From Dysidea avara (Eukaryota > Porifera > Demospongiae > Dictyoceratida > Dysideidae): a stretch of DNA of 64,000 nucleotides. This document shows positions 28,169 to 63,125 of this stretch, one piece after another (the first letter of the stretch is position 1; each line of letters starts with the position of its first letter). The stretch spans positions 1,631,001 to 1,695,000 of the forward strand of contig NC_089275.1 in assembly GCF_963678975.1 (NCBI RefSeq). The letters run 5' to 3'. Below the pieces are notes generated by a model. That model did not search any database. It was not told the origin of the DNA and was given only the letters and a program-made list of their open reading frames with translations. Both the position numbers and the translations under genes were made by a program.

Positions 28169-31100
28169 GTGAGTTGGTGTGTGCAATGAGGATAGTAGAC
28201 AGTACAATACCATATACTGTACATTCATTATGTGTCTTCTTTAGGATCAGTGGACTCCACTTCACTGTGCTGCTTATAATGGTGATGCTGAAGTAGTGGA
28301 ATTTCTCATCAAATCAAAATCAAATGTTAATGCCAATGAAGTGGTGAGTTGGTGTGTACAATGAAACTAACAAAATTAATACAAATAAAAGATGTCAAAG
28401 AAAGGCATTTAAAATGCTATTTTTAAAGGAAAAATATTAATTATAAGTTATTGTTACAACTCGGATGGCTATCAGCATGTTAGTAGTATTTTGTGATTAC
28501 ACATTATAACAGCACATCATATGCAACCAGCTGAGTATAAACTAGTTGTTTTCGTAAAATTCAGTTTTGCTATATAAACTCAGTAATAATTATATACTTA
28601 CTACATAAAAACAATTACAACAGTTTTAATTGCTTTGGTACACACTGAAAAGTCTCAATCGTATTTATGATGCAGTAGAAATGAAATTTATCATTACAGT
28701 ATTTTTGTTGGAACCTTCTTCTTTGTCCACACTTACTACAGATAACAGAAATAGAATTTGAGGAATGTGCAAATATGTGTGTGTCTGTGTAGTAGGCCAT
28801 TAATTATTATCATCATTGCAACCATTTCTTGACCACCACCATTGATTCACAGCTTCTAGTTTTTAAGAAGTGTATTTCATGCCCTAAAGCAAACTTATTA
28901 TAATGTTGGGTTGTGGCTTGGATTGCCTCTTTCTTTCTGCAGGCAAAATAGTGACTGTCAGATTGCTTTTATATTTTGCATATTACCATGTGTTTCATGT
29001 GTTGGAATATAATTTTGAATTTGATTTATATTGTTCTAACAGTAGCTACTCTATGATTGTACTATGTAAGCAGCTTTCTGATTTAGAATAAAATGTGTAA
29101 AGTAATGTGAAGTGTGTGAGATATTAATAGTGTACAAAGCATCTCTAAAATCTTTAGGATAAGTGGACTCCTCTCCATATTGCAGCTCATGAAGGGCATA
29201 ATCAAATCATTGAAATACTGGTGAAATCAGGAACAAATATCAATGTGGTTGACAAGGTTAACTGTGTATTGATATATGAGTAGAGTTGCTTACAATGTAA
29301 ATGATGTCTTTAGACTACATCAACTCCTCTACACTTTGCTATTCAAAATGGTCATGTTACTGTAGTGGAGATACTAATCACATTAGGAGCTGATGTCAAC
29401 GTTGTTAACAATGTGAGTCTTTAATGAAACAAGCCTACAACATTCACAGCACAGATTGTATACTTTACTGCATTTGCATGTTTTAGTTTGTGAAGTGTGT
29501 ATTGTATATGTTGGTGTATTGTACATGTTGGTGTATTGTATATGTTGGTGTATTGTATGTGTTGGTGTATTGTGCATGTTGGTGTATTGTATGTGTCGGT
29601 GTATTGTGTATGTTGGTGTATTGTATTTGTTGGTGTATTGTGTATGTTGGTGTATTGTATTTGTTGGTGTATTGTATATGTTGGTGTATTGTATTTGTTG
29701 GTGTATTGTATAAGTTGGTGTATTGTATATGTTGGTGTATTGTATATGTTGGTGTATTGTATATGTTGGTGTATTGTGTATGTTGGTGTATTGTGTATGT
29801 TGGTGTATTGTCTTTGTTGGTGTATTGTATATGTTGGTGTATTGTATATGTTGGTGTATTGTATATGTTGGTGTATTGTATATGTTGGTGTATTGTATAT
29901 TATGTTGGTGTATTGTATATCTAATCAAAAACAGCCAAGCTGTAAAAAAAGGTGCGGCCCCCAAAAAGGCCATGGTGAAAAAAGATGTGAAATCCAAGGT
30001 GGCGGCCAAGAAATGGCTGTGATGGTAGGTTAATGGTTACATTTTAATAACAACAATTCAGGTGAATTTGGTGCCAAGACCAAGCGGCACAAAATTAACC
30101 TGAATTGTCGTTATTAAAATGTAACCATTAACCTACCATCACAGCCATTTCTTGGCTGCCACCTTGGATTTCACATCTTTTTTCACCATGGCCTTTTTGG
30201 GGGCCGCACCTTTTTTTACAGCTTGGCTGTTTTTGATTAGATATCACTTCTTTCTGTATTTGTATACTGCAAAGCCGGCCTATGGCTGGCTTTGGGGCTT
30301 TTTTAACCCATGTGTTTTTTTCTTTACTACAGGAAGAAGAAAAGAACTTAAAGAAGAATTTTAGTACTTCAATTATTTTTGATTTTATTATACAAATTAT
30401 ATATATATATTTATTACATGCCCATTTTGCCCCACAGGATATTTTTTTGCAGCTGATCTCTCTACTGGGTGACTTGAAATGTAGCTGAACTATATACAGG
30501 ATGGTTTCTTTGTAGCTGAACTCTCTACAAGGTAACCTCTTCTAGCTGGTCTCTCTACAGGGTATTTTGTTTCTAGCTGAACTCTCTACAGGTGATTTGT
30601 TTGCAGCTAAACTCTCTACATGGTGGTGTCTTTGTAGCCGAACTCTCTACATGATGGTTTCTTTGTAGCTGAACTCTCTATAAGGTGACTTCGTCTAGCT
30701 GAACTCTCTACAGGGTGATTTTTTTGTAGCTGAATTCTCTGCAGGGTGATTTTTTTTGCAGCTGAACTGTCTACATGATGGTTTCTTTGTAGCTGAACTC
30801 TCTACAAGGTGACTTCGTCCAGCTGATCTCTCTACGGGGTGATTTGTTTCTAGCTGAACTCTCTACAGGTGATTTGTTTGCAGCTAAACTCTCTACATGG
30901 TGGTTTCTTTGTAGCTGAACTCCCTACATGATGGTTTCTTTGTAGCTGAACTCTCTACAAGGTAACTTCTTCTCTACAGGGTGATTTGTTGTAGTTGAAT
31001 TCTCTACAAGGTGGTTTGTATGAGGCTGAACTCTCTACATGGCGGTTTCTTTGTAGCTGAACACTCTACAAGGTGACTTCTTCTAGCTCATCTTTCTACA

Positions 31101-34100
31101 GGGTGAATTGTTGTAGCTGAACTATCTACAAGGTAACTTCTTCTAGCTGATCTCTATACAGGGTGATTTATTTGTAGATGAATTCTGTACAGGTGGTTTC
31201 TTTGTAGCTGAACTCTTTACAAGGTGACTTCTTCTAGCTGAGCTCTCTACGGGGTAATTTCTTTGTAGCTGAACTCTCTATAATTATGATGGTTTCTTTG
31301 TAACTGAACCCTCTACAAGGTAACTTCTTCTAGCTGATCTTTCTACTGGGTGATTTGTTTGCAGCTGAACTCTCTACATGGTGGTTTCTTTGTTGCTGAA
31401 CTCTCTACAAGGTGAATTCTTCTACCTGATCTCTCTACAGGGTAATTTGTTTGTAACTGAACTCTGTACAAGTGCGTTTTTGTGGTGATCTCACTGCAGG
31501 TTGATTTGTTTGTAGCTGAACTCACTAAAGGGTGATTTTGCTTGTAGCTGAACTCCTTGCATTGTATCTAGTTTCTAGCTGATCTCTCTGCAGGGTGATT
31601 TGTTTGTAGCTGATCTCTCTACAAGTTGATTTGTGTGTAGCTGATCTCTCTGCAGGTTGATTAATTTGCAGCCGATCTCTCTACAAGGTAATTTGTTTGT
31701 AGCTGAACTGTCTATAAAGTGATTTATTTGTAGCTGATCTCTCTGCAGGTTGATTTGTTTTAGCTGAACTCTCTACAGGGTGATTTACTTGTAGCTGAAC
31801 TCCTTACTTTGTGTCTAGTTTGTAGCTGATCTCTCTACAGGGTGATTTGTTTGTAGCTGAACTCCTTACATTGTGTGTAGTTTCTAGCTGATCTCTCTAC
31901 AGGGTGATTTGTTTGTAGCTGATCTCTATACAAGTTGATTTGTGTGTAGCTAATCTCTCTGCAGGGTGATTTGTTTGTAGCAGATCTCTCTACAAGGTAA
32001 TTTGTTTATAGCTGAACTATCTATAAGGTGATTTGTATGTAGCTAATCTCTCTGCAGATTGATTTGTTTTAGCTGAACTCTGATTTGTTTTTAGCTTATC
32101 TCTGTACAGGTTGATTTGTGTGTAACTGATCTCTCTACAAGCTGATTTGTTTGTAGGTGATCACTCTGCAGATTGATTTGTTTCTAGATGATCTCTCTAC
32201 AGGTTGATTTGTTTGTTGCTGATCGCTCCAAAGGTTGATTTGTTTGTAGCTGAACTCTCTGCAAAATGTTTTGTTTGTAGTTGATCTCTCTACAAGGTGA
32301 TTTTTTGTAGCTGACCTCTCTTCAGGGTGATTTGTTTCTAGCTGATATCTCTACAGGGTGATTTTTTGTAGCTGACCTCTCTTCAGGGTGATTTTTTGTA
32401 GCTGACCTCTCTTCAGGGTGATTTGTTTCTAGCTGATCTCTCTACAGGGTGATTTGTTTGTAGCTGATCTCTCTACAAGTTGAATTGTGTGTAGCTGATC
32501 TCTCTGCAGGTTGATTTGTTTGTAGCCGATCTCTCTACAAGGTAATTTGTTTGTAGCTGAACTGTCTAAAAAGTGATTTGTTTATAGCTGATCTCTCTGT
32601 AGGTTGATTTGTTTTAGCTGAACTCTCTACAGGGTGATTTATTTGTAGCTGAACTCCTTACGTTGTGTGTAGTTTCTAGCTGATCTCTCTACAGGGTGAT
32701 TTGTTTGTAGCTGATCTCTCTACAAGTTGATTTGTGTGTAGCTGATCTCTCTGCAGGTTGATTTGTTTGTAGCCGATCTCTCTATAGGGTAATTTGTTTG
32801 TAGCTGAACTCTCTATAAGGTGATTTGTTTGTAGTTGATCTCTCTGCAGGTTGATTTGTTTGTAGCCGATCTCTCTACAGGGTAATTTGTTTGTAGCTGA
32901 ACTCTCTACAAGTTGATTTGTGTGTAGCTGATCTCTCTGCAGGTTGATTTGTTTGTAGCCGATGTCTTTACAGGGCAATTTGTTTGTAGCTGATCTCTCT
33001 ACAGGGTGATTTTTTTGTAGCTGACCTCTCTTCAGGGTGATTTGTTTCTAGCTGATCTCTCTACAGGGTGATTTTTTGTAGCTGACCTCTCTTCAGGGTG
33101 ATTTGTTTCTAGCTGATTGCTCTACAGGTTGATTTGTTTGTAGATGAACTCTCTACAGGGTAATTTGCTTGTAGTTGAACTCCTTACTTTGTGTAGCTGA
33201 TCTCTCTACAGGGTGATCTGTTTGTGTAGCTGATCTCTATACAAGTTGATATGTGTGTAGCTGTTCTCTCTGCAGGGTGATTTGTTTTAGTAGCCGATCT
33301 CTCTACAAGGTAATTTGTTTGTAGCTGAACTATCTATAAGGTGATTTGTATGTAGCTGATCTCTCTGCAGATTGATTTGTTTTAGCTGAACTCTCTACAG
33401 GGTGATTTGTTTCTAGCTTATCTCTCTACAGGTTGATTTGTTTGTTGCTGATCGCTCTAAAGGTTGATTTGTTTGTAGCTGAACTCTCTGCGAAGTGTTT
33501 TGTTTGTAGTTGATTTTTCTACAAGGTGATTTTTTGTAGCTGACCTCTCTTCAGGGTGATTTGTTTCTAGCTGATATCTCTACAGGGTGATTTTTTGTAG
33601 CTGACCTCTCTTCAGGGTAATTTGTTTCTAGCTGATCGCTCTACAGGTTGGTTTGTTTGTAGCTGAACTCTCTACAGGGTGATTTGCTTGTAGCTGAACT
33701 CCTTACATTGTGTCTAGTTTCTAGCTGATCTCTCTACAGGGTGATTTGTTTGTAGCTGATCTCTCTACAAGTTGAATAGTGTGTAGCTGATCTCTCTGTA
33801 GGTTGATTTGTTTGTAGCCGATCTCTCTACAAGGTAATTTGTTTGTAGCTGAACTGTCTATAAGTTGATTTGTTTGTAGTTGATCTCTCTGCAGGTTGAT
33901 TTGTTTTAGCTGAACTCTCTACAGGGTGATTCGTTTGTAGCTGAACTCCTTACATTGTGTGTAGTTTCTAGCTGATCTCCCTACAGGGTGATTTGTTTGT
34001 AGCTGATCTCTCTACAAGTTGATTTGTGTGTAGCTGATCTCTCTGCAGGTTGATTTGTTTGTAGCCGATCTCTCTACAGGTAATCTGTTTGTAGCTGAAC

Positions 34101-37100
34101 TCTCTATAAGGTGATTTGTTTGTAGCTGATCTCTCTGCAGGTTGATTTGTTTTAGCTGAACTCTCTACAGGGTGATTGCTTGTAGCTGAACTCCTTACAT
34201 TGTGTCTAATTTCTAGCTGCTGTCTCTACAGGGTGATTTTTTTTAGCTGAACTCTCTACAGGGTGATTTATTTCTAGCTTATCTCTCTACAGGTAGATTT
34301 GTGTTGATTTGTTCATTGCTGATTGCTCTAAAGGTTGATTTGTTGCAGCTGAACACCCTGCAAAGTGTTTTGTTTGTAGCTGATCACTCTAAAGGGTAAT
34401 TTGTTTGTAGCTGAACTCTCTCCACAGTGACTTGTGTGTAGCTGAATTCTGTGTAACTGAATTCTCTAAAGAGTGACTTAATTGTAGCTGAATTCTCTAC
34501 ACAGTGCATGACTTGTTTATAGCTGAACTTTCTTCAGTGTGACTTGTAATGTTCTGAATCTCTATAGTGATATATTTGCTTAACTCTCCACATGGTGACT
34601 GTCTTCTTGCTGAACTGTCTATAAGATTAACTGTTTGCAGCTGAACTCCCTACAGAATAACTTGTGATGTAATAAAATTCTATAATGGAATAAATAAATT
34701 AGCCGAATGATCTATTAGGGTGACTGTTCTATTAGAGTATCTCGATCTCGCATTTGCTACACGGAGTTGGCTTTCGAATCATAACTCAGTGGTTTGTAAT
34801 CCGATTCTTCTGTACTACTGCAAAGACTTTCTATGAAGATTATTCCAGCTATACACCGATTTTCAGCTCATTGCTCTAAGCGGTTTGCCTAGTAGGCGTA
34901 AAAACTAATACTTTTTTATTACCAAAAATCGATCGCGTAATTGTGACACAGGTTGGGTTTTGTGTCATATCTCCGTGGTCTTTATCTCGATTCCTTTCAA
35001 ACCACCAAAAGGCACTCCTACGATGGTTACTCCATCTATATAGCAATTTTCAACTCATTCCATGAAGCGGTTTACCCTGTAGGCGTGACAACTAGTCGAT
35101 CTTGTTTTACGCGAATAATCGGTCATAACTCCTGAACCATTCATCGGATTTGTACCAAATTTGATGCTAGGATTCGCCTTTGGACTTCTTTTCTGTGTGC
35201 CAAATTTCACGGCGATCGGAGTACGGGTTTGCTTGTTATAGCAATTTTTGCAAGTGTGCGAAAAGACGAAGAAGAAGAAGAAGAAAAAAACCAAGAAAAA
35301 AAAACGAAACTTTGGCAGCTCGTATCTCGGAAATGGCTGGAGCGATTTCCTTCAAATTTGGAATGTAGACTCCCTTGGCTGGCGGGAAACTGTGTAGCAA
35401 ATTTGGTTCCAATCAGATAAGTGATCACTGAGATACAAATGTGTGCAAATGACGTTTTCGTTCTTCCTGTCAATATACTCAAGGTGTGGCGCGCCGGCTT
35501 CTTGGGCCGCACGACACACTACCGTGTGTCTTGATGTTGGTGTATTGTATATGTTGGTGTATTGTATGTGTTGGTGTATTGTATTTGTTGGTGTATTGTA
35601 TGTGTTGGTGTATTGTATATGTTGGTGTATTGTATGTGTTGGTGTATTGTATGTGTTGGTGTATTGTATGTGTTGGTGTATTGTATGTGTTGGTGTATTG
35701 TATGTGTTGGTGTATTGTATGTGTTGGTGTATTGTATGTGTTGGTGTATTGTATGTGTTGGTGTATTGTATATGTTGGAATATTATTATGTGCTCTAATA
35801 AAAACAGCTGTTTAATTTTTATATGACTACTCTATTACAGTTACTGACTGTTCTATTAGAGCACATTTTCATCAATTTTTCCATAATAGGTAGTGTCTAA
35901 TTGATTACGTCTTTAACTATTTCTTTTACAGGATACGTTTACTCCACTACATCTTGCAGCTCAACATGGTCATGTTCCTATAGTGGAGTTGTTGATTAAA
36001 TTGGTAGCAAGAGTCAATGTTCCCACTAAGGTCAGCATAACTAAATAAATTGGTAGTAGCTATAATTTCTATAGGATGGATCTACTCCTCTACACATTGC
36101 TAGTCAACATGGCAAAGTTCAGGTAGTAGAAACACTGATCAGATCAGGAGCAGACAACAATGCTGCTAACAAGGTCATTATTTTGTAACAGCTATATCCT
36201 GCTAAGGCTTCATGCTTCTGTGACATACATGCCTACTAGCATAGCTTCAGTAATTTTTTTTCTTTCTTTTTTCTGGTACATTTCTCTGAATGCAAATTGC
36301 ATGGGATTTACAATTATTGTCAAGACAATAACCACTGTGTAAACTCTTTGCTGTACAGTTTCACTTTATGACAGCAATATTTGAATGATATCTCCTAGAA
36401 TTTTTTCTATCACACCAGTGTTTATTCCCCATGATGTTATAAGGGATTCCCCCAAAATATATAAATTCCTTCTCCCCATTGTGGAGCGTAACTTCACTGT
36501 ACTAAGTTAACGTTGTTCTTGAAATGATGCACAAAAACTGTCATAATGCTCTCAGATTCAATCTCAGACAGTTCAATGTCCCCCTGTAGACCTCTTAAGA
36601 AGAAAACAGTGGAAACGTAGGCTGCCCATATATATCAAGATTAACTGAAGAAAATTCAATCATATTGGCTGTATTTCCTACCCTCAGATATAATACAAAT
36701 ACTTTGGAGAAGCATGTGCGGAAATCTTATTTTCTTTCTTCCAGTCAATATGATGTAATGCACCAGCTTTCTGGCCATGCAATTCACTGCTGTGTGTTTT
36801 GATAATAGAGTGCAATTTTACATATCCAAAATCAATAATGTTATGACCTCACAACCTCCTATCCTAAAGTTTGTTACTTGTCATGATTATACATGATCCA
36901 GCACATGATGTATTGAGGCTGATTTTGTACATTCAGAGTGTAACTGTTTAGGGTATTCATTACTGAGTAGTATAGCAATTAAATAGTCTTCATTAACTTA
37001 ATGTACTCTATTGGCCAATCAAATGTCATTAACAAGCTCAATGCTAGTCATTGCACTGCTTCAAAGTCAGAATGATTAAATGTTTGGATATTAGTTTTCA

Positions 37101-40100
37101 TTATTTAATTGTAGCTTTAGTAACATGGTGGGCCTGTGTGTGGTACCCAGCCAAAGCAATCATATTATTTATAAAATCTAAGGTTTACAGATCCTTGTAA
37201 TTTGAATTATAACTAACCACTATAATATATTGCTTATCCTACATAGAGTGGATCTACTCCTCTACACCTTGCTGCTCAGCATGGTCAAGGTCAAGTGGTG
37301 GAGACACTGATCAGATTGGGAGCAGGTGTTGGTGTAGTTGATAAGGTTAAGAAAAGCTGTGTAGTTACTAATTGAAATATACCTGATATTTTCATGCTAT
37401 AGAGTGGCTATACTCCACTGCACCTTGCTGTTCATCACAATAAAGGTCAACTGGTGGAGGTGCTGATCAAATTAGGAGCAGATGTCAGTGCAGTCAATAA
37501 GGTTAACTAATCTAGTTACTAATGGAAATGTATCTAATCACTTTGATATTATTATACTATAGAGTGGATATACTCCTCTACATCTTGCTGTTCAGCGTGG
37601 CCTTATTCCAGTGGTGGAGACACTGATCAGACTACAAGTAGATGTTAATGCCATGACAATGGTAATGACATGACTTGGACAGTTATCATATCTACTACAA
37701 GTACACCATAAATTTGAGCAGATTCCATGATTAACTTTAGTAGTAAAAAGCCATTCCTAATGTGTACTCGTAATAAAGAACTGGAATTATCCAGCCAAAA
37801 ATATCACCCTAAAGCCAGCCTCAGTTTCCCTTCATGACAGTTTGGCAGCATTGGTTAGGCACAGCCAAGCCCAAAAATGTCTTCAGAACAACTCCAAACC
37901 CTTCCAAAAAGTTTCTAAGGGATTTCAAAACAATTCTATTAACAGGAGTTTATGCTGACTGGCTGACTAACTGATGCCTCCAGCCAAGCATAACTAGACA
38001 ATGGATGAGGCTATGGGCTTGATTTCTCATTGTTCGATGTCACCTCATCCTGAGATGTGCCTTTTCACTAACCACAGTATGTACAATACACCAGTGCATC
38101 ATGGACTTGCCTTTATCCTCCTTTGTGTTTCAGTTCTTTTTGAAGTGTTGATTCACGATAGTGCAATGAGGAATTCCTGTGGCTTATGTTATCGCTTGTA
38201 TTTTCCATAGCAACTGGCAGAAACTCTTCTCTGGCATACTGTTCTTCATCTGTAACATTGTGTATTCTCCTTTATGTAGTAGTAGCTAGTTATGTAGTCT
38301 TTTGTAACTTACACCTCCATATATCCTAACAAAATGGGTAAAATATAGCTGAAAGTAAACTGTAATGGCCACCTCCTTTTCTGTTACGTAACTGAATGTT
38401 TGGTTGGGCACTCATTCTATCATAATGCAAAATTTGGCAATCCTGGAGCCATTCTTTCTTTTGATGCAGTATGTGCTGGCTCATTTTCCATAACTATGTT
38501 ATAAAAATAAAACAAATAGAAAGAAAAATTAGGAATTTCAAGTTGGCTTAAGGATCAAAGTAAAAACAGTGGTGAAACAAGGACATAGCTAAAAGTGGTG
38601 AAACAAGGAAGGTTGCCTATACCTGTAGATGTACTAGTGGACATTTAATCCTTAATTCAATCTAAATTCAGTCCATAATACATAATCCTTAATTCAGTTA
38701 TATTTATAAAGATTTAATGTCCACTAGTATATCTGTAGGCGTAGGCAACCTTCTTTGTTTCACCACTTTATAGCTATTCCTTTGTTTTCACTATATACTT
38801 TTCTCTTTAATCTCTAATTTAACTTAATATTCCCTTCTCCTTATTAATTCACACACATAGATTAGCTGAAATCTTCTGCTACATGAAATTTTGTGCTAAC
38901 TGTAGTGTTTTTATTACCATAGTTTGGAAAATTTTTAACTGAAACTATAGTTACTGGATGACATTTCATGACTGCAGACCGATGTCGAAAAAATTATGTG
39001 AACAAAATAATGCTTGAAAGCATTATTGCAGTATATTCTTAAAAGAAAGCTTGATTGAGCATGAGGGCTAGTTGTAGAGTATAAAATGGAAGCTGCAAAT
39101 TCCAAAGCTGAAAGTATTGCTACTACTCTCTAGTACTACACTGATTCAGAGTTAAACACTATTACTGTATTGCTGTATACAGAATAATTGTCTTCATAAA
39201 AGTTCTTAATGAATTTTGTGAACCTTGTTTCCCAGGAGAGAGTAATAGTGACAGATATGGCTTTTATGACTAACTAATTATGGCAATGTGTATCACAAGA
39301 TGCTATATGTGGCCCAGTCCGGGAAATCCCGTCTTATCGCCTATTTAAAAATATCAAGAAATGCCGGTTTTAAGTATTTAGAGTGTTAGCTCGCCAATGG
39401 TTGAAGCTATGTGTACCAAATTTTTGTATGTTTTACTTACCTTCAAAAGGGTGGGAAGTAGGGGCCTAAAAAGAGGGCAAGAGACTGTTTAAAAATCGTA
39501 AAGGAAGGTGTAGCGATGAATTAGACAAAGTTATGGGCCATTCATATATCAAAACTGGCTTAAATGAAAGGAGTTTTACAGCACAGGTCTTTATTCAAAG
39601 CCATGTAGCTGTACAGTCAAACACAGCCATCCCCAGGCTGACCAGAGGTCCATTAAGGCCCCACACTGCACATACGGATTGAGAAAAGCAGCTAGCAAAA
39701 AGCAGACCAATCAAGTCTAGCTGTGAAATTAGATAGTTTATTCATGTTGTGTTCTTGGTGAAAAATTAAATCTGTTGACATGGGAAATAAGACCGGTTTT
39801 CCCAGACCCAGCCACATATGTAGCAGGAAAACTGGATATCGCATTAAACTACTAATTAAAAATCTTTGGAATACTTGTGTATGATAACTGAATGTTTTAT
39901 ATCTGTATACAGAAGGCTATACATTCAAATGACTACATGACTTACACATTGAATGAAATACATGCTATATACACTGAAGTGGGATACTCCTCCACTATAT
40001 AATGAACTCTTTGATATTCAGTAAACATAATGATATGATAGCATGTGATTTTCTTAAATAGAGTGGATCTGGTTCTCTACACATTGCTAGTCAACATGGT

Positions 40101-43254: not shown

Positions 43255-43261
43255 AACATAC

Positions 43262-44449: not shown

Positions 44450-44979
44450 TCTAATCAAAAACAGCCAAGCTGTAAAAAAAGGTGCGGCCCCCAAAAAGGC
44501 CATGGTGAAAAAAGATGTGAAATCCAAGGTGGTGGCCAAGAAATGGCTGTGATGGTAGGTTAATGGTAAAAATTTTAATAACGACAATTCAGGTTAATTT
44601 GGTGCCAAGACCAAGCGGCACAAAATTCATCTGAATTGTCGCTATTAAAATTTTTACCATTAACCTACCATCACAGCCATTTCTTGGCCGCCACCTTGGA
44701 TTTCACATCTTTTTACACCATGGCCTTTTTGGGGGCCGCACCTTTTTTTACAGCTTGGCTGTTTTTGATTAGATATCACTTCTTTTTGTATTTGTATACT
44801 GCAAAGCCGGCCAATGGCTGGCTTTGGGTTTTTTTTAACCCATGTGTTTTTTCTTTACCACAGGAAGAAGAAAAGAACTTAAAGAAGATTTTTAATACTT
44901 CAATTATTTTTGATTTTATTAGTAATTATACAAATTATATACATATATTTATTACATGCCCATTATTCCCCACAGGATA

Positions 44980-47790
44980 TTATTTTGCAGCTGATCTCTC
45001 TACTGGGTGACTTGAAATGTAGCTGAACTATCTATAAGGTGACCTCTTCTAGCTGATCTCTCTACAGGGTGATTTGTTTCTAGATGAACTCTCTACAGGC
45101 GATTTGTTTGCAGCTAAACTCTCTACATGGTGCATGGTTTCTTTGTAGCTGAACTCTCTACACGATGGTTTCTTTGTAGCTGAACTCTCTACAAGGTGAC
45201 TTCTTCTAGCTGAACTCTCTACAGGGTGATCTTTTTGTAGCTGAACTCTCTACAGGGTGATTTGTTTGCAGCTGAACTCTTTACATAATGGTTTCTTTGT
45301 AACTGAACACTCTACAAGGTGACTTCTTCTAGCTGATCTTTCTACAGGGTGCTTTCTTTGTAGCTGAACTCTCTATATGATGGTTTCTTTGTAGCTGAAC
45401 TCTCTACAAGGTGACTCCTTCTAGCTGAACTCTCTACAGGGTGATTTGTTTGTAGCTGAACTCTTTATATGATGGTTTTTTTGTAGCTGAACTCTCTACA
45501 AGGTGCCTTCTTCTAGCTGAACTCTCTACAGGGTGATTTCTGTGTAGCTGAACTCTATATGATGGTTTCTTTGTAGCTGAACTCTCTACAAGGTGACTTC
45601 TTCTAGCTGATCCCTCTACAGGGGGATTTGTTTGTAGCTGAACTCTCAACAAGTGATTTATTTGCAGCTGACCTCTTTATGTGGTGGTTTCTTTGTAGCT
45701 GAACTCACTATAAGATGACCTCTTCTAGCTGATCTCTCTCCAGGGTGATGTGTTTCTAGCTGAACTCTCTACTGGTGATTTGTTGCAGTTAAACTCTCTA
45801 CATAGTGGTTTCTTTGTAGCTGAACTCTTTACAAGGTGACTTCTTCTAGCTGAACTCTCTACAAGGTGATTTCTTTGTAGCTGAACCCTCTACATGATGG
45901 TTTCTTTGTAGCTGAACTCTCTACAAGGTGACCTCTTCTAGCTGATCCTTCTACAGGGCGATTTGTTTGTAGTTGAATTCTCTACATGGTGATTTGTTTG
46001 AGGCTGAACTCTCTACATGGCGGTTTCTTTGTAGCTGAACTCTCTACAAGGTATCTTCTTCTAGCTGATCCCTGACATCCCTCTACAGGGCAATTTGTAG
46101 TTTAATTCTCTACACGGTGATTTGTTTGAGGCTGAACTCTCTACATGGCGGTTTCTTTGTAGCTGAACTCTCTACAAGGTGACCTCTTCTAGCTGATCTC
46201 TCTACAGGGTGATTTGTTTCTAGTTGAACTCTCTACAGGTTATTTGTTTGCAGCTAAACTCTCTACATGGTGATTTCATTGTAGCTGAACTCTCTACACG
46301 ATGGTTTCTTTGTAGCTGAACTCTCTACAAGGTGACTTCTTCTAGCTGAACTCTCTACAGAGTAAATTTGTTTGCAGCTTAACTCTCAGAGTCTACATGA
46401 TGGTTTCTTTGTAGCTGAACTCTCTACAAGGTGACTTCTTCTAGCTGAACTCTCTACAGGGTGATCTTTTTGTAGCTGAACTCTCTACAGTGTGATTTGT
46501 TTGCAGCTGAACTCTCTACATGATGGTTTCTTTGTAGCTGAACTCTCTACAAGGTGACCTCTTCTAGCTGATCTCTCTACAGGGTGATTTGTTTCTAGCT
46601 GTGTGAACTCTCTACAAGTGATATGTTTGCAGCTGAACTGTGGTTTCTTTGTACCTGAACTCTCTACAAGGTGACTTGTTTCTAGCTGATCCCTCTACAA
46701 GGTGACTTCCTCGAGCTGATCTCTCTACAGGTTGATTTGTTTGTAGCTGAACTCTCTACAGGGTGATTTGTTTGCAGCTGAACTCTCTACAGGGTGATTT
46801 GTTTGTAGCTGAACCCTCTACAGGATGGTTTCTTTTGTTACTGAACTTTCTACAAGGCAACTTTTTCTAGCTGATCACTCTACAAGGTGACTTCCTCTAG
46901 CTGATCTCTCCATAGGGTGACTTGTATCTAGCTGAACTATCTACAGGATGATCTGTTCATAGTTGAAATCTCTACAGGTTAATTTGTTTGTAGCTGAAAC
47001 CTCTTGTTTCAAACTGATCTCACTGTAGCATAACTTCTTTGTAGCTTAACTCTCTACAGAGTGATTTTTTTGTAGCTGAACTGTATATAGGGTGATTTGT
47101 TTGTACCTGAACTTTCTACAGGGTGATTTGTTTATAGCTGAATGCTCTGCAGGGTGATTTGTTTGTAGTTGATCTCTCTACAGGGTTTCTTTGCAGCTGA
47201 GTTCTCTACAGGGTGACTTCTTCTAGCTGAACTCTCTCTTGCTTCTAGCTGATCTCTCTACAGAGTAACTTGTTTGTATAGCTGAACTCTTTACAGAGTA
47301 GTATTTTGGTTGCTGAACTCTCTACACGGTGACATTTTTGTAGCAAAATTCTTTACAGAGTGACTTGGTGGTAGCTGAATTCTCTACAGAGTGACTTATT
47401 TGTAGCTGAATTCTCTACAGAGTGACTTACTTGTAGCTGAACACTGTATAAACTATAAAGTGACTTGTCTGTAGCTGAACTCTCTTCAGGGTTACTTGTT
47501 TGCAGGTGATCTCTATAGGGTAACTTGTTTGTATAGATGAACTCTTTACAGGATAGTTTCTTTGTAGCTGAACTCTCTCCACAGTGACTTGTTTGTAGCT
47601 GAATTCTCTAGAGAGTGTAGCCGAACTCTCTACAGGGTGCATGACTTGTTTATAGCTGAACTCTCTTCAGTGTGACTTGCAATGTTATGAATCACTACAG
47701 CGATATATTTGTAGCTGAACTCTCTATAGGGTGACTTGCTTCTTGCTGAACTGTCTATAAGATTAACTGTTTGCAGCTGAACTCCCTACA
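44980..47790 (+). repeat. 31-bp satellite array of copy B
   Basis: About 90 monomers of the same type as in copy A, with a different order of variants. Most alternate between the GGTGACTTCTTC and GGTTTCTTTGTAGC types. Confidence 0.9.
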
Positions 47791-48406
47791 GAATATGGTA
47801 ATAGAATTCTATAATGGAGTAAACAAATTAGCTGAATGCTCTATTAGGGTGACTGTTCTATTAGAGTATCTCGATCTCGCATTTGCTACACGGAGTTGGC
47901 TTTCCAATCATAACTCAGTGGTTTGTAATCCAATTCTTCTATACTACTGCAAGGACTTTCAATGAAGATTATTCCAGCTATACACCGATTTTCAGCTCAT
48001 TGCTCTAAGCGGTTTGCCTAGTAGGCGTGAAAACTAATACTTTTTTTATTCCTAAAAATCGATCGCGTAATTATGACACAGGTTGGCTTTTGTGTCATAT
48101 CTCCGTGGTCTTTATCTCGATTCCTTTCAAACCACCAAAAGGCACTCCTACGATGGTTACTCCATCTACATAGCAATTTTCAACTCATTCCATGAAGCGG
48201 TTTACCCTGTAGGCGTGACAACAAATCGATCTTGTTTTACGCGAATAATCGGTCATAACTCGTGAATCATTCACCGGATTTGCACCAAATTTGATACTAG
48301 GATTCGCCTTTGTACTCCCCTTCTGTGTGCCAAATTTCAAGGCGATCGGAGTACGCGTTTGCGTTTTATAGCAATTTTTGCAAGTGTGCGAAAAGACGAA
48401 GAAGAA

Positions 48407-49129
48407 CACTGTAAATTCAAATGGGTACAAATGACCCAAAATTTTGGGTTGTTTTACCTGCAATTCAAACGACCGATTTTTTGGTAGTAATGACCCAAGG
48501 ATGTACTTCGTTATTTTAACTTTATAAGATATAGTCATATTACCCAGATGCCCTAAAGTCTCTTCAACCTCTAGCCAAGTGTTTGAAATAACCTTGCCAT
48601 CATGGTTGTTTTAACCATCTGTCGTAAAATTAACTCATGTCACAAAATAATTATTTGTTTGTTTGTTTACATTAATTAACAAGTCAGTCATCATTAGTAA
48701 TAACATACAGTAATCTGTCTATGACACATATTCACAATAATTGTTACATACATACTGCATCTTAATACTTTAACATACCTAATCTTATAGAGTTTTCAAA
48801 TTGTATATAAAACCTATGTTATCCGTGTTCACTTTTGATTGTGGGATGTAACACAAATGTTACAACGGTCAGTGTACTGTAAATTTAACCATGTAGCTGG
48901 TCATCTAATCTGTGCCATAGTAGACTTGACCATACACACTGAAATTACCCAAATGTGTTATTTCAACATCCTAAGTGAACAGTTATATTGACCTACCCTA
49001 GTTATTATGACTGATTTAGTCCAAAAGCCTACCTTAGTTATAACTACTTTTAGATGGTAATTTTTACAAAAAAATTTGTAGTTTAAATTAACCCATGGAG
49101 ATTGAATTGATCCATTTGAATTTACTGTG
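48407..49129. mobile_element. 723-bp TIR element inside copy B
   Basis: CACTGTAAATTCAAATGGGT (48407) pairs with ATCCATTTGAATTTACTGTG (ending 49129). Flanks AAGAAGAA and AAGAACAA give an 8-bp target duplication with one mismatch, which fits hAT. It is absent from copies A, C and D at the same site. No transposase frame. Confidence 0.8.
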
Positions 49130-49559
49130 AAGAACAAGAAGATGAAGAAAAAAAAACGAAGAAAAAAAAACGAAACTTTGGCCACTCGTATCTCGGAAAT
49201 GGCTTGAGTGATTTCCTTCAAATTTGGAATGTAGACTCCCCTAGCTGGCGGGCAACACTGTAGCAAATTTGGTTCCAATCGGATGTGGTATCACCGAGAT
49301 ACAAATGTGTGAAAATGACGTTTTCTTTCTTCCTGTCAATATACTCACGGTGTGGCGCGCCGGCTTCTTGGGCCGCACGACACACTATCGTGTGTCTTGA
49401 TAATAATAACATACCAGCTCCCCAGGCAGTGGCATTCTTCAGTAGCATCTGGCCATAGACAGTGGTGTGCAGAATTGATTATCGACAGTCGACATCATTA
49501 TTATCCATCTGTTAACTTGAGTATATTGATTATTAACCGGCTTGAGGTATTTCACTAGG

Positions 49560-54270: not shown

Positions 54271-57200
54271 TCTAATCCAAAACAGCCAAGCTGTAAAAAA
54301 AGTGTGCGGCCCTCAAAAAGGCTATGGTGAAAAAAGATGTGAAATCCAAGGTGGACAAAATTCACCTGAATTGTTGTTATTAAAATTTTTACCATTAACC
54401 TACCATCACAGCCATTTCTTGGCCGCCACCTTGGATTTCACATCTTTTGTCACCATAGCCTTTTTGAGGGCTGCACACTTTTTTTACGGCTTGGCTGTTT
54501 TTGATTAGATTTCACTTCTTTTGTATTTGCATACCCCAAAGCCGGCCTATGGCCAGCTTTGGGACTTTTTTAACCTATATTTTTTTCTTTGCCACAGGAA
54601 GAAGAAAAGATGAAGCAGATGTACTTTAGATATTTCTGATTTTATCAGTAAATGTACAAATTATATATATAATACATATATTTATCACATACGTAACTCT
54701 CTATGGTGGTTTCTTTGTAACTGAACACTCTACAAGGTGACTTCTTCTAGCTGCTCTCTCTACAGGGTGAATTGTTTGTAGCTGAACGATCTACAAGGTA
54801 ACTTCTTCTAGCTGATCTCTCTACAGGGTGATTTGTTTGTAGCTGAACTATCTACAAGGTCACTTCTTCTAGCTGATCTTTCTACAGGGTGATTTGTTTG
54901 TAGCTGAATTATGTATAGGTGATTTGTTTGCAGCTGAGCTCTTTACAGAATGGTTTCTTTGTAGCTGAACTCTCAACAAGGTAATTTCTTCTAACTGATC
55001 TTTCTACAGGGCAATTTGTTTGTGGCTGAATGTTTACAGGGTAATTTCTTTGCAGCTGAACTCTCTACATGGTGGTTTCTTTGTAGCTGAACTCTCTACA
55101 CGGTAATTTCTTCTAGCTGATCTTTCTACAGGGTAATTTGTTTGTAGCTGAATTCTGTACAGGTGATTTGTTTGCAGCTGAGCTCTTTACAGAATGGTTT
55201 CTTTGTAGCTGAACTCTCTACAAGGTAACTTCTTCTAGCTGAACTCTCTACATGGTGGTTTGTTTGTAGCTGAACTCTCTGCAAGGTGACTTCTTCTAGC
55301 TGATCTTTCAACAGGGTGATTTGTTTGTAGCTGAACTATCTACAAGGTAACATCTTCTAGCTGATCTCTCTACAGGGTGATTTGTTTGTAGCTGAACTAT
55401 CTACAAGATAACTTCTTCTAGCTGATCTCTCTACAGGGTGATTTGTTTGTAGCTAAATTCTGTACAGGTGATTTGTTTGCAGCTCAGCTCTTTACAGAAT
55501 AGTTTCTTGTAGCTGAACTCTCTACGAGGTAACTTCTTATAACTGATCTTTCTACAGGTTATGGCTGAATTTTCTACCGGGTGATTTCTTTGCAGCTGAA
55601 CTCTCTACATGGTGGTTTCTTTGTAGATGAGCTCTCTACAAGGTAATTTCTTCTAGCTGATCTCTCTACAGGGTTATTTGTTTGTAGCTGAACTCTCTAC
55701 AAGGTAACTTCTTCTAGCTTATCTTTCTACAGGGTGATTTGTTTGTAGTTGAATTCTGTACAGGTGATTTGTTTGCAGCTGAGTTCTTGCAGAATGGTTT
55801 CTTTGTATCTGAACTCTCTACAAGGTAACTTCATCTAGCTGATGTCTCTACAGAGTCACTAGTTTATAGCTGAACTCTCTACATGGTGGTTTCTTTGTAA
55901 CTTAACTCTCTACAAGGTGACTTTTTCTAGCTGATCTTTCTACCGGGTGATTTGTTTGTAGCTGAACTCTCTACAAGGAAACTTCTTCTAGCTGATCTCT
56001 CTACAGGGAAATTTGTTTGTAGCTGAACTCTCTACAAGGTAACTTCTTCTAGCTTATCTTTCTACAGGGTGATTTGTTTGTAGTTGAATTCTGTACAGGT
56101 GATTTGTTTGCAGCTGAGTTCTTGCAGAATGGTTTCTTTGTATCTGAACTCTCTACAAGGTAACTTCATCTAGCTGATGTCTCTACAGAGTCACTAGTTT
56201 ATAGCTGAACTCTCTACATGGTGGTTTCTTTGTAACTGAACTCTCTACAAGGTGACTTCTTCTAGCTAATCTTTCTACCGGGTGATTTGTTTGTAGCTGA
56301 ACTCTCTACAAGGAAACTTCTTCTAGCTGATCTCTCTACAGGGAAATTTGTTTGTAGCTGAACTCTGTACAGGTGATTTGTTTGCAGCTGAACTCTCTAC
56401 ATGATTGTTTCTTTGTAGCTGAACTCTCTACAAGGTAACTTATTCTAGCTGATCTCTCTACAGGGTTATTTGTTGGTAGCTGAATTCTGTATATAGGTGA
56501 TTTATTGCAGCTGAGCTCTTTACAGAATGGTTTCTTTGTAGCTGAACTGTCTACAAGGTGACTTCTTCTAGCTGATCTTTCTACAGGGTGATTTGTTTGC
56601 AGCCGAACTACCTACAAGGTAACATCTTCTAGCTGATCTCTCGACAGGGTGATTTGTTTGTAGCTGAACTATCTACAAGATAACTTCTTCTAGCTGATCT
56701 CTCTACAGCGTGATTTGTTCGTAGCTGAATTCTGTATAGGTTATTTGTTTGCAGCTGAACTCTCTACAAGGTAACTTCTTCTAGCTGATGTCTCTACAGG
56801 GTCACTAGTTTGTAGCTGAATTCTCTACATGGTGGTATCTTTGTAACTGAACTCTCTACAAGGTAACTTCTTCTAGCTTATCTCTCTACAGGGTGATTTG
56901 TTTGTACGTAGCTGAATTCTGTACAGGTTATTTGTTTGCAGCTAAACTCTTTACAGAATGGTTTCTTTGTAGCTGAACTCTCTACAAGGTAACTTCTTCT
57001 AGCTGATCTCTCTACAGGGAGATTTGTTTGTAGCTGAACTCTCTACATGATGGTTTCTTGTTAGCTGAACTCTCTACAAGGTAACTTCTCCTAGCTGATC
57101 TCTCTACAGGGAGATTTGTTTGTAGCTGAACTCTCTACAGGTGATTTATTTGCAGCTGAGCTCTTTACAGAATGGTTTCTTTGTAGCTGAACTCTCTACA

Positions 57201-59306
57201 AGGTGACTTCTTCTAGCTGAACTCTCTACATGGTGGTTTGTTTGTAGCTGAACTCTCTACAAGGTGACATCTTCTAGCTGATCTTTCTACAGGGTGATTT
57301 GTTTGCAGCCGAACTACCTACAAGGTAACATCTTCTAGCTGATCTCTCTACAGGGTGATTTGTTTGTAGCTGAACTATCTACAAGATAACTTCTTCTAGC
57401 TGATCTCTCTACAGGGTGATTTGTTTGTAGCTGAATTCTGTATAGGTGATTTGTTTGCAGCTGAACTCTCTACAAGGTAACTTCTTCTAGCTGATGTCTC
57501 TACAGGGTCACTAGTTTGTAGCTGAATTCTCTACATGGTGGTTTCTTTGTAACTGAACTCTCTACAAAGTAACTTCTTCTAGCTGATCTCTCTACAGGGT
57601 AATTTGTTTGTAGCTGAACTCTCTACAGGTGATTTGTTTGCAGCTGAACTCTCTACATGATGGTTTCTTTTTAGCTGAACTCTCTACAAGGTAACTTCTT
57701 CTAGCTGATCTCTCTACAGGGAGATTTGTTTGTAGCTGAACTCTCTGCAGGTGATTTGTTTGCAGCTGAACTCTCTACATGATGGTTTCTTTTTAACTGA
57801 ACTCTCTACAAGGTAACTTCTTCTAGCTGATTTCTCTACAGGGAAATTTGTTTGTAGCTGATCTCTCTACATGATGGTTTCTTTGTAGCTGAACTCTCTG
57901 CAAGTTAACTTCTTCTATTGATATCTCTACAGGGCGATTTGTTTGTAGCTGAATTCTCTACATGGTGGTCTCTTTGTAACTGAACTCTCTACAAGGTAAC
58001 TTCTTCTAGCTGATCTTTCTACAGGGTGATTTGTTTGTAGCTGAACTCTCTACAAGGTGACTTCTTCTAGCTGATCTTTCTACCGGGTGATTTGTTTGTA
58101 GCTGAACTCTCTACAAGGAAACTTCTTCTAGCTGATCTCTCTATAGGCGATTTGTTTGCAGCTGAACTCTCTACGTGAAGGTTTCTTTTTAGATGAACTC
58201 TCTACAAGGTAACTTCTTCTAGCTGATCTCTCTACAGGAAGATTTGTTTGTAGCTGAACTCTCCACCTGGTGGTTTCTTTGTAGTTGAACTCTACAAGGT
58301 GATTTCTTCTAGCTGAACTATCTCTTTCCATAGTTGCATGAACTCCCTACTTCTAGCTGATCTCTCTACAGGGTGGATTGTTTGTAGCTGATCTCTCTAC
58401 AGGGTGACTTGTTTGTAGCTGATCTCTATACAGGTTACTTGTTTCTAGCTGATCTATTGAATTCTCTTCAGGGTGACTGCTCTATTAGGATGACTGCTCT
58501 ATTAGAGTATCTCGATCTCACACTTGCTACACCAAGTTGGATTTCGTGTTATAACTCCGTGGCTTTAAGTCTGATTCTTCTACACCATTGAAGAGCCTTT
58601 CTAAGATGATTACTCCATCTGTACAGCAATTTTCAAAGCATTAGCCCAAGCGGTTTATCTGGTAGGCGTGGCAAACAGTCGTTTTTTATTAGCTAATCTC
58701 GATTGCGTAATTGTTACACACTGTTGGTTTTTTCATTGTATCTTCGTGGTTTTTAACTCGATTCCTTTCAAACCACAAAAGGTTTGAGGTTCAATAGGTA
58801 ACCTATTCACCCACCGATTTTCAGCTTCTTCCCATACGCGGTTTACCCTGTAGGCGTGACAACATATTGGTGTTAGTTTTAGTGAATAATCGCTCATAAC
58901 TCTTTGCCTGTTTATGGTATTCCAGCTAAAGTTGGTACCGAGATGCGCCTTTATACCCCCCTTCTGTGTGCCAAAGTTCAAGGCAATCGGATATGGCGTT
59001 CGCGTTTTATAGCAGTTTTTGTAAGTGTGCGAAAAGAGGAAGAAAAATAAGAAGAAAAAAAGCGAAGAAACTAAGCCAATATTTGAAGTCGCATATCTCG
59101 GGAACGCCTGAAGCGATTTCGCTCAAATTTGGAATGTGGAGTCCTGAACTTGGAGGGAGTGAGCATAGCAAAAATCGTCTTGTTTCATCAAGGCAGCACA
59201 GAGCTACGAAGGTGCGAAAATTGCGTTTTCTTTCTTCCTGTCAATATACTCACGGGGGTTGCGCGCCGGATTCTTGGGCCGCACGACGCACTACCGTGTG
59301 TCTTGA
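54271..59306 (+). mobile_element. Large satellite-bearing Helitron-like element, copy C
   Basis: 5036 bp from TCTAATCCAAAACAGCC (54271) to GTGTGTCTTGA (59306), between A and T. The fold-back 54271-54509 has lost about 85 bp of its left arm and tip. Satellite about 54690-58490, 3' module 58482-59306. The terminal hairpin has one changed base (GACGCAC for GACACAC). It is a subfamily somewhat different from A and B and closer to D in its 5' end. Confidence 0.85.
54690..58490 (+). repeat. 31-bp satellite array of copy C with segmental duplications
   Basis: About 120 monomers. A 335-bp block around 55716 is repeated at 56051 almost unchanged, and a block around 56601 recurs about 706 bp downstream at 57307. 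This shows recent unequal exchange or slippage inside the array. Confidence 0.9.
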
Positions 59307-59735: not shown

Positions 59736-62700
59736 TCAAGACACACGATAGTGTGTCGTGCGGCCCAAGAAGCCGGCGCGCCACACCGTGAGTATATTAA
59801 CAGGAAGAAAGAAAACGCAATTGTCACACCTATGTAGCTCTGTGATCCCTTATCCGATTGGAACCAAATTTGCTGGAGGCCTGCCGTCCAGTTATGGGAG
59901 TCTACATACCAAATATGAAGAGAATCGCTCCAGCCATTTCCGAGATATGAGCGAACAAAAGTTCGTTTTAATCTCTTCGTTTTTTTCTTCTTCTACTTCT
60001 TCATTTCGCAAAATCCGCCATAAAACACGAATGCGTGCTCGGATCGGGCTGAAATTTGGCACACTTAAAGGGCTCATTAAGGCGGATCTCTGTACCAACT
60101 TTAGTAGGAATCCGATGACCATTCACGGAGTTATGACCGATTATTTGCGTAAAATAAGGTCGAAGGTCTGTCACGCCTACAGGGTAAATCCCTTGGAGGA
60201 ATCAGTTGAAAATTGATATGTAGATGGAGCAACCATCGTAGGAGTGTCTTTTTGTGGTTTGAAAGGAATCGGAATGGAGATATGACACAAAACCCGACCT
60301 GTGTCAAAATTACGCGATTGATTTTTATGAATAAAAAAACTATTAGTTTTCGTGTCTACCAGGCAAACCGCTTAAAGCAACGTGCTGAAAATCAGTATGT
60401 AGCTGGAATAATCATCATGGAAAGTTCTTCCAGTAGTACAGAAGAATCGGATTACAAATCACTGAGTTATGATTCGAAAGGCAACCATGTGCAGCAAATG
60501 CGAGATCGAGATACTCTAATAGAACAGTCACCCTAATAAAGCATTCAGCTGCATGTATAATTTACTCAATTATATTACATTGTAAGTTATTCTGTAGAGA
60601 ATTCAGCTACAAACAAGTCACCCTGCAGTCAGATTAGCTAGAAGAAGGTACCTAATAGAGAGTTCAGATACAAAGAAGCCATCATGTAGAGAGTCCAGCT
60701 GAAATAAATCACCCTGTAGAGAATTCAGCTACAAACAAATTGCCCTGTAGAGAGATCAGCTAGAAGAAGTTACCTTGTAGAGAGTTCAGTTACAAAGAAA
60801 CAATCATGCAAAGAGTTTAGATGCAAACAAATCACCCAGTACTCAGAAAGTTCCGCTATGAACAGATCACACTGTAGAGAGTTCAGTTAGAAACAAGTCA
60901 TCCTGTAGAGAGATCAGCTAGAAGAAGTCACATTGTTGAGAGTTCAGTTACAAAGAAACAATCATGCAAAGAGTTTAGCTGCAAACAAATCACCCAGTAA
61001 AAAGTTCCGCTATGAACAGATCACACTGTAGAGAGTTCAATTAGAAACAAGTCATCTTGTAGAGAGATCAGCTAGAAGAAGTTACCTTGTAGAGAGTTCA
61101 GTTACAAAGAAACAATCATGCAAAGAGTTTAGCTGCAAACAAATCACCCAGTAAAAAGTTCCGCTATGAACAGATCACACTGTAGAGAGTTCAGTTAGAA
61201 ACAAGTCATCCTGTAGATAGATCAGCTAGAAGAAGTCACTTTGTAGAGAGTTCGGCTACAAAGAAACCACCATGTAAGAGAGTTCAGCTGCAAACAAATC
61301 ACCTGTAGAGAGTTCAGCTAGGAACAGGTCACCCTGTACAGAGATCAGCTAGAAACAAGTCATCCTGTAGAGAGTTCAGCTAGAAGAAGTTACATTGTAG
61401 AGAGTTCAGCTACAAACAAATCACCCAGTAGATAGTTCAGCTAGAAACAAGTCACCCTGTAGAGAGATCAGCTAGAAACAAGTCACCCTGTAGAGAGTTC
61501 AGCTAGAAGAAGTTACATTGTAGAGAGTTCAGCTACAAAGAAACTACCATGTAGAGAGTTCGGCAGCAAACAAACCGCCCTGTAGAGAATTCAGCTACAA
61601 ACAAATCACCCTGTAGAAAGATCAGCTAGAAGAAGTTACCTTGTAGAGAGTTCAGCTAGAAACAAATCACCCTGTAGAGGGTTCAGCTACAAACAAGTCA
61701 TCCTGTAGAAAGTTCAGCTAGAAGAAGTTGCATTGTAGAGAGTTCAGCTACAAGAAACTACCATGTAGAGAGTTCAGCAGCAAACAAATTGCCCTGTAGA
61801 GAATTCAGCTACAAACAAATCACCTTGTAGAAAGATCAGCTAGAAGAAGTTACCTTGTAGAGAGTTCAGCTACAAACAAGTCACCCTGTAGAGAGATCAG
61901 CTAGAAACAAGTCACCCTGTAGAGAGTTCAGTTAGAAGAAGTTACATAGTAGAGAGTTCAGCTACAAAGAAACCACCATGTAGAGAGTTCAGCTGCAAAC
62001 AAATTGCCCTGTAGAGAATTCAGCTACAAACAAATCACCTTGTAGAAAGATCAGCTAGAAGAAGTTACCTTGTAGAGAGTTCAGCTACAAACAAATCACC
62101 CTGTAGAGAGTTCAGCTAGAAACAAGTCACCCTGTAGAGAGATCAGCTAGAAACAAGTCACCCTGCAGAGAGTTCAGCTAGAAGAAGTTACATTGTAGAG
62201 AGTTCAGCTACAAGGAAACTACCATGTACAGAGTTCAGCTGCAAACAAATTGCCCTGTAGAGAATTCAGCTACAAACAAATCACCCTGTAGAAAGATCAG
62301 CTAGAAGAAGTTACCTTGTAGAGAATTCAGCTACAAACAAATCACCCAGTAGAGAGTTCAGCTAGAAACAAGTTACACTGTAGAGAGATCAGCTAGAAAC
62401 AAGTCACCCTGTAGAGAGTTCAGCTAGAAGAAGTCACATTGTAGAGAGTTCAGCTACAAAGAAACTACCATGTAGAGAGTTCAGCTGCAAACAAATTTAC
62501 AAATTGCCTTGTAGAGAATTCAGCTACAAACAAATCACCCTGTAGAAAGATCGTCTAGAAGAAGTTACCTTGTAGAGAGTTCAGCTACAAACAAATCACC
62601 CTGTAGAGAGTTCAGCTACAAACAAGTCATCCGGTAGAGAGATCAGCTAGAAGGGTCACTTTGCAGAGAGGTCAGCTACAAAGAAATCACCCTGCTTCAT

Positions 62701-63125
62701 CTTTTCTTCTTCCTGTAGTAAAGAAAAAATGCCAGGTTAAAAAGTCCTAAAGCCGGCCATAGGCCGGCTTTGGGGTATACAAATATAAAAAGAAGTGAAA
62801 TCTAATCCAAAACAGCCAAGCTGTAAAAAAAAAGTGCGGCCCTGAGAAAGGCTATGGTGAAAAAAGATGTGAAATCCAAGGTGGCGGCCAAGAAATGGCT
62901 GTGATGGTAGGTTAATGGTAAAAATTTTAATAACGACAATTCAGGTGAATTTTGTGCCAAGACCAAGCGGCACCAAATTCACCTGAATTGTTGTTATTAA
63001 AATTTTACCATTAACCCTATCATCACAGCCATTTCTTGGCCGCCACCTTGGATTTCACATCTTTTTCACCATAGCCTTTCTCAGGGCCGCACTCTTTTTT
63101 TACAGCTTGGCTGTTTTGGATTAGA
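59736..63125 (-). mobile_element. Large satellite-bearing Helitron-like element, copy D
   Basis: On the - strand it begins TCTAATCC at 63125 and ends GTGTGTCTTGA at 59736, again between A and T. 3390 bp, the shortest copy. Fold-back 63125-62801; hairpin AAAGCCGGCC-ATA-GGCCGGCTTT at about 62750-62772 is perfect here. The AT-rich block before the satellite is missing. Satellite about 60590-62700, 3' module 60538-59736. Its 3' end faces that of copy C. Confidence 0.85.
60590..62700 (-). repeat. 31-bp satellite array of copy D
   Basis: About 68 monomers seen as complement (GTAGAGAGTTCAGCTAGAAG, CAAACAAATCACCCTG). Blocks of about 250-300 bp recur several times between 61370 and 62560, a higher-order repeat. 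Confidence 0.9.

Follow-up and report, generated by a model that had tools for sequence, protein, structure and literature searches.

A high-copy family of mobile elements with internal 31-bp satellite arrays and a head-to-tail bias among neighbouring copies

We describe a family of mobile elements that carry arrays of a 31-bp satellite, have defined ends and high copy number, insert exactly between A and T, and lie next to copies of their own kind in the same orientation far more often than inverted; one train is composed of copies from different subfamilies. The evidence set out below supports that these elements are mobile and that the arrays spread with them. The family is probably a non-autonomous rolling-circle element that is moved in trans by a putative HUH/RepHel-like enzyme and reuses a one-sided target. 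The question addressed is how satellite arrays scatter and then lengthen; an array-bearing element that adjoins its own copies nose-to-tail is one way in which satellite DNA could be sown and lengthened. The genome-wide census of junctions provides a sign, open to testing, that insertion is strand-specific and that growth is serial and in the same orientation, and the thousands of copies allow target choice and the growth of arrays to be measured on a sample.

The window, that is, the whole 64,000-bp stretch of DNA analysed, corresponds to C4:1631001-1695000 in a genome of 550.8 Mb and 108 contigs. An earlier note on this DNA had proposed four copies with shared termini and a shared order of parts, and this was confirmed for all four, each consisting of a 5' fold-back, a GC hairpin, the 31-bp array, a 3' module, a terminal hairpin and TTGA (Table 1). 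The predicted RNA energies of the fold-backs in the window range from -278 to -152 kcal/mol, and of 14 further fold-backs that were measured, 13 have lengths of 319-329 nt, the fourteenth having escaped the search pattern. The 3' end has the consensus GACACAC-TAYC-GTGTGTC-TTGA (with GACGCAC in E3), in which the 7-bp stem of the hairpin is followed immediately by TTGA. The element nested in E2 is 723 bp long, has 18-nt inverted ends (CACTGTAAATTCAAATGG) and is flanked on both sides by AAGAA; we take it to resemble a small CACTG-type DNA transposon. Read by eye, the fold-back arm of E1 (window 29972-30022) forms a short lysine-rich open frame, possibly a product of chance, and a 156-bp tandem repeat (window 37234-37629) looks like ankyrin-type coding repeats.

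Table 1. Positions of the four element copies, their parts and the E1 target within the window.
Feature	Positions	Strand	Remarks
E1 element copy, 5,615 bp	29920..35534	+	TC start, TTGA end, A|T flanks
E1 5' fold-back, 322 nt	29920..30241	+	MFE -278 kcal/mol
E1 GC hairpin AAAGCCGGC...GGCTTT	30271..30293	+	
E1 31-bp satellite array, 139 cores	30434..34496	+	
E1 3' module, 800 bp	34735..35534	+	
E1 terminal hairpin, 7-bp stem	35513..35530	+	TTGA next, 35531-35534
17-bp minisatellite, left part of E1 target	29497..29919	+	
17-bp minisatellite, right part of E1 target	35535..35778	+	Register kept
E2 element copy, 4,951 bp	44450..49400	+	Includes nested 723-bp element
E2 5' fold-back, 324 nt	44450..44773	+	
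E2 31-bp array, 98 cores	44984..47792	+	
E2 3' module	47864..49400	+	Broken by 48407-49129 insert
E3 element copy, 5,036 bp	54271..59306	+	
E3 5' fold-back, 239 nt	54271..54509	+	
E3 31-bp array, 126 cores	54705..58455	+	
E3 3' module	58505..59306	+	58515-58634 corresponds to the empty site of a nested C1 insertion
E4 element copy, 3,390 bp	59736..63125	-	Inverted
E4 5' fold-back, 325 nt	62801..63125	-	
E4 31-bp array, 69 cores	60584..62694	-	
E4 3' module and terminal hairpin	59736..60516	-	

Array units were counted by their recognisable cores. The array accounts for 76%, 57%, 74%, and 63% of E1, E2, E3, and E4, respectively, in agreement with the proposal that it makes up most of the element. 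Among the four window arrays, the mean nearest edit distance between units was 0.74-2.62 within an array and 2.07-3.54 between arrays, with a small margin in E2 (2.62 vs 2.72). Because units are on average closest to units of their own array, the arrays also change by local amplification. Elsewhere in the genome, 26 of 30 end loci picked for an atypical last base were preceded by four or more array cores in the adjoining 1.5 kb. Among the four array-poor end loci, L072 retains no more of the module than its final ~340 bp; at L083 the 3' module is present and an array is absent from the stretch examined; the module at L097 is broken by ~750 bp, and any array would fall outside the stretch examined; and L075, a divergent copy, does not have four or more cores in the 1.5 kb upstream.

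Genome-wide, the start motif TCTAATCMAAAACAGCC has 8,721 + 8,694 = 17,415 exact matches, often two per copy, and a 26-base end motif has 3,334 + 3,474 = 6,808, while reversed control patterns gave none, placing the family far above chance; these counts comprise exact motif matches and leave mutated copies uncounted. Of the first 100 start matches on contig C1, 78 formed 39 fold-back pairs and 22 were single. When starts were paired with ends, as the earlier note had suggested, in the first 3.41 Mb of C1, 23 of 28 exact ends had an exact start on the correct strand within 9 kb. These 23 copies have a median length of 4.5 kb and sum to 95 kb, or 2.8% of the 3.41 Mb; extrapolating from the 6,808 ends, the family may occupy very roughly 4-5% of the genome. 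The size of 3.4-5.6 kb initially given for the elements describes the four window copies as they stand, but the own length of E2 is nearer 4.2 kb after subtraction of the nested element and the C1 copies range from 2.1 to 5.6 kb.

All 14 complete copies read at both flanks (four in the window and ten fetched from C1) have the form A|TCTAATC...CTTGA|T. Across the genome, the final A is missing from 64 of 6,808 ends, the following T from 84 of the 6,744 ends with a final A, and the preceding A from 158 of 17,415 starts (both fold-back arms counted). Two comparisons of filled and empty sites, a check proposed beforehand, each revealed an exact insertion. E1 is flanked on each side by a perfect unit of a 17-bp minisatellite, with the register kept across the insertion. 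A C1 copy (L059/L060) splits the 3' module of another copy, and its joined flanks give an ungapped 120-bp alignment (95%) with window 58515-58634. Because the element ends in A ahead of a T, both comparisons fit insertion without duplication and duplication of AT alike; the claim that the elements lie between A and T without duplication is, therefore, borne out for A|T, whereas its second part is unprovable since an AT duplication would look identical.

The same 14 flanks, both empty sites and the near-invariant A and T are fitted equally well by a cut-and-paste, DDE-like element CTAATC...CTTG with a strict AT target that is duplicated on insertion. We nevertheless consider such an element distinctly unlikely, as no inverted repeat links the two ends, which have in common just a 9-bp match (GTGCGGCCC) with a score that shuffled ends can exceed. 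Moreover, among the matches listed for C1-C5, 43 right ends without A and at least 95 starts not preceded by A yielded a single pair no more than 10 kb apart, with a strand consistent with an inner arm; no correlated non-AT duplication was, therefore, seen among them. That copies spread by segmental duplication rather than transposition is scarcely credible: two loci (L099 and L100) have an identical 20 bp of right flank, but the flanks of the 14 complete copies all differ, which excludes this as the main route, and exact empty sites exist. With mobility, defined ends and precise A|T insertion, the proposal that the arrays spread with the transposing element is supported.

The target signal is asymmetric. 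On the left flank, each of positions -1 to -9 is A/T in 11-14 of the 14 copies, and positions -10 to -14 are A/T in 7, 10, 5, 5, and 5 of 14; accordingly, mean AT is 0.84 over bases 1-10 and 0.56 over bases 11-20. The corresponding values on the right flank are 0.74 and 0.65. Because the enrichment is stronger and sharper on the left, the signal is located mostly on the 5' side.

Neighbouring copies have a strong orientation bias. Seamless head-to-tail junctions (CTTGA|TCTAATC) occur 115 times genome-wide, and seamless tail-to-tail junctions at two places (a palindrome, matched on both strands), while no seamless head-to-head junction was found. By chance, 1.3 seamless pairs would be expected if all A|T sites were equal and 10.3 if only sites with 9/9 AT on the left are counted, the density of such sites being taken from the non-element parts of the window. 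Head-to-tail pairs separated by a 1-31-bp spacer number 100, of which two were dropped, their 17-bp spacers being inner-arm sequence; the remaining 98 compare with 21 spaced inverted pairs (nine tail-to-tail and 12 head-to-head), where random orientation predicts equal numbers. This also bears on a DDE-like element with AT duplication, for which the palindromic target would leave orientation free beside a resident copy. Because the seamless pattern matches the start motif in either arm of the fold-back, outer or inner, the orientation lock rests mainly on the spaced class. Seamless junctions might in fact arise by insertion at any A|TCTAATC arm, including the inner arms of inverted residents, in which case this class would not be locked in orientation; the search pattern indeed fits both arms, and an inner arm is joined in 2 of the 100 spaced pairs. 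We regard this as very unlikely: the outer start was found in 7/7 seamless junctions read among the 115 (from two clusters chosen for same orientation), for the junction at C1:6867181 the next listed end on the same strand is 4.4 kb further on, as an outer start gives, and 98 of 100 spaced pairs are free of doubt about the arm. We found no report of an orientation census in the openly accessible literature on head-to-tail or tandem Helitrons.

Seamless junctions also form trains. At C3:35130552-35154598, five in a row join six copies, with steps of 8.7, 4.1, 6.0, and 5.2 kb between junctions. The 3' modules of copies 1-5 are E4-, E4-, E1-, E3-, and E1-like, respectively, and the 5' arms, read in copies 2-6, are E4-, E1-, E3-, E1-, and E1-like; thus, in copies 2-5, for which both ends were read, the 5' arm and the 3' module are of matching subfamily. 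Identity between adjacent 3' modules is 98.0% for copies 1-2, and 84.5, 82.6, and 82.9% for copies 2-3, 3-4, and 4-5. The mixed subfamilies argue that most of the growth of this train occurred by serial insertion in the same orientation and not by duplication of one unit; for copies 1 and 2, duplication is possible. In a second train (C1, L106/L107), the 5' arm of the middle copy is E4-like, but its 3' module resembles the E4 group at just 87-89%.

Trains could also be concatemers produced in one transposition event with the terminator bypassed, or tandem duplications. Tandem and adjacent Helitrons have already been published, and PMC4067079 ascribes tandem arrays, in bat and silkworm, to bypass of the end; the near-identity of C3 copies 1 and 2 fits this explanation, and so does the identical 19-bp spacer of the pairs at C3:35158325 and C3:35161969, which may be duplicates. 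Still, with seven junctions read in all, the divergence and differing subfamilies of neighbours 2-3, 3-4, and 4-5 in the C3 train and its uneven steps of 4.1-8.7 kb make concatemers or duplications unlikely as the source of the trains.

Spacer length among the 100 spaced head-to-tail pairs peaks at 8 bp (36 pairs), 9 bp (12), and 10 bp (15). Pure (TA)n makes up 62 of the 100 spacers; of the remaining 38, 22 measure 8-9 bp. Neither this peak nor the rarity of inverted pairs inside (TA)n tracts is explained by reuse of the same site alone, and tethering to the end of a resident copy is an alternative. Specifically, an enzyme held on the 3' hairpin of the resident would invariably cut one and the same strand, either at that end (0 bp) or roughly a helical turn further downstream (8-10 bp), in line with the spacer lengths and with the scarcity of inverted pairs, TA tracts included. 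On the other hand, the AT-rich 5' flank apparently required for insertion in general is also 8-10 bp long, and the 62 pure (TA)n spacers are likely a hot spot; on balance, we find tethering somewhat unlikely. As a tentative proposal, possible rather than probable, a rolling-circle family may target its own copies in fixed orientation, either seamlessly or one helical turn off, so that independent insertions of array-bearing elements are coupled into compound satellite blocks. If true, transposition would offer a way for short, dispersed arrays to become long satellites.

Returning to the rolling-circle element with a reused, one-sided target, which we favour, we infer the type of enzyme, the transfer of a strand, the role of the terminator and the reuse of the same site from the TC start, the A|T target with its one-sided signal, the 3' hairpin and the strand-biased insertion, all of which point to a rolling circle; a strand-transfer or circular intermediate was not seen. 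In this model, a rolling-circle (HUH/RepHel-like) enzyme would act in trans on a high-copy family without recognised coding sequence. It would nick one strand at the 5' end of the element (A|TC) and nick an A|T target selected by the ~9-base AT-rich stretch 5' of the site. The element strand would then be displaced and copied, with the 3' hairpin and TTGA serving as terminator. The stretch that selects the target would remain upstream of the resident copy, the own T of which would complete A|T again. Because this stretch stays in place and the nick would be strand-specific, re-entry in the same orientation becomes possible, and later copies would enter at or near the same place to build head-to-tail trains of unrelated copies. 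Because AT is self-complementary, an enzyme that cuts both strands would be blind to orientation, whereas a single-strand nick would be sensitive to it. The 31-bp array would travel as part of the element and subsequently be altered by local amplification.

Rolling-circle enzymes exist in this genome: at least 150 matches to the Helitron_like_N profile (PF14214) were scored among 230 candidates, many of them in long open frames. Many Helitron copies (L009-L039, L061-L070) contain long open RepHel frames, and pairs within a subfamily are about 97-99.7% identical, which suggests, as judged from sequence, recent Helitron activity. L039 encodes Helitron_like_N and PIF1 domains, and L040 additionally an OTU domain. 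By comparison of copies, the 3' ends of RepHel elements were defined for L039 with L061-L064, for L065-L068 and for the pair L069/L070; in these families (two clear, L069/L070 probable), a hairpin is followed after 11-12 nt by CTAG|T. The autonomous element with Rep/helicase and the same ends that the earlier note had called for was, therefore, not among the best-scoring RepHel families with definable ends, which were rejected as partners on account of CTAG instead of TTGA. Element sequence near three RepHel loci (L067, L068, and L023) looks like separate copies inserted nearby and not like common ends. L040 likewise gave no sign of being the partner within the 2.9 kb past its open frame, where no hairpin was found to end in TTGA or CTRR. 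Downstream of its RepHel and OTU gene lies a tandem array (L040:5480-6870), the units of which, judged by eye, are roughly 50 bp long.

A coding element carrying the ends of the family was not found, and the family is without a recognised gene. One open frame, starting RLDRPGDVFHPDF (L075, C1:38366555-38369581), lies between pieces of a divergent 3' module. It was rejected as a coding relative, having no Pfam match at E 0.1 and no frame of at least 120 aa on the same strand in the next 4 kb; since pieces of the divergent module flank the frame, it is either an insert or a fragment.

Compared with known classes, the family is like Helitrons, as had been proposed, in its TC start and A|T insertion (14/14 copies), its 3' hairpin and the orientation bias of neighbours. 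The likeness does not extend to the 3' end: canonical Helitrons have a hairpin about 10-12 nt before the 3' end, while here 4 nt separate the two in 4/4 window copies, and the final bases are not CTRR but CTTGA in 6,744 of 6,808 ends, so that the TTGA end and hairpin position had rightly been called non-canonical. The canonical Helitrons of the same genome (L039, L061-L068) have in common with the family a 3' hairpin and a T after the 3' end, but end in CTAG 11-12 nt past the hairpin, whereas in the family, which has no recognised gene, TTGA follows the hairpin directly. DDE elements and MITEs have terminal inverted repeats across both ends; in the family, the long inverted repeat is confined to the 5' end.

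Like HINE elements, the family combines a 5' inverted repeat, central repeats and a 3' palindrome, but its target is A|T instead of TT with oligo-T boundaries, and where a HINE has subterminal inverted repeats (subTIRs) of 11 bp or more close to its two ends, all four window copies have the 9-bp GTGCGGCCC. This repeat was rejected as a HINE subTIR, its length being insufficient to make it distinctive; with a shuffled 3' end, E1 gives a higher score. According to PMC4067079, DINE-1/HINE elements and Helentrons have in common with the family an inverted repeat at the 5' end, repeats in the centre (which account for about 50% of some Culex copies), a 3' stem-loop and high copy number. They differ by a TT target, T-rich boundaries and subTIRs that lie a few nt from the 5' end and measure 12-15 bp (mite), where the sole common block of the family is 9 bp long and lies 32-33 nt from the 5' end.

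The closest description of satellite-like arrays within such elements in these sources is that of Cg_HINE in Crassostrea gigas, a non-autonomous Helitron-like element, and the spreading of satellite-like arrays by elements of this kind is already known (PMC7492417). Cg_HINE and the family are both non-autonomous and dispersed genome-wide, with a left inverted repeat, a central satellite-like array and a right palindrome; for Cg_HINE, no partner has been assigned and no sign of duplication is reported. However, Cg_HINE prefers TT and has inverted repeats of 7-12 bp and subTIRs of 11-12 bp, in contrast to A|T and a fold-back of 239-329 nt in the family. Moreover, Cg_HINE arrays have monomers of 138-181 bp, on average 3.62 per array and at most 29.3, and occupy 0.85% of the assembly, whereas the 31-bp units of the family reach 69-139 cores and 57-76% of the element in the four window copies. 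Pearl elements of bivalves also carry central tandem repeats between conserved flanks, in their case up to six of ~160 bp (as described in PMC7492417). With A|T instead of TT, TTGA instead of CTRR and a huge fold-back, the anatomy of the family fully fits neither the Helitron nor the HINE definition; this unusual anatomy and the strong orientation bias between close neighbours distinguish this variant.
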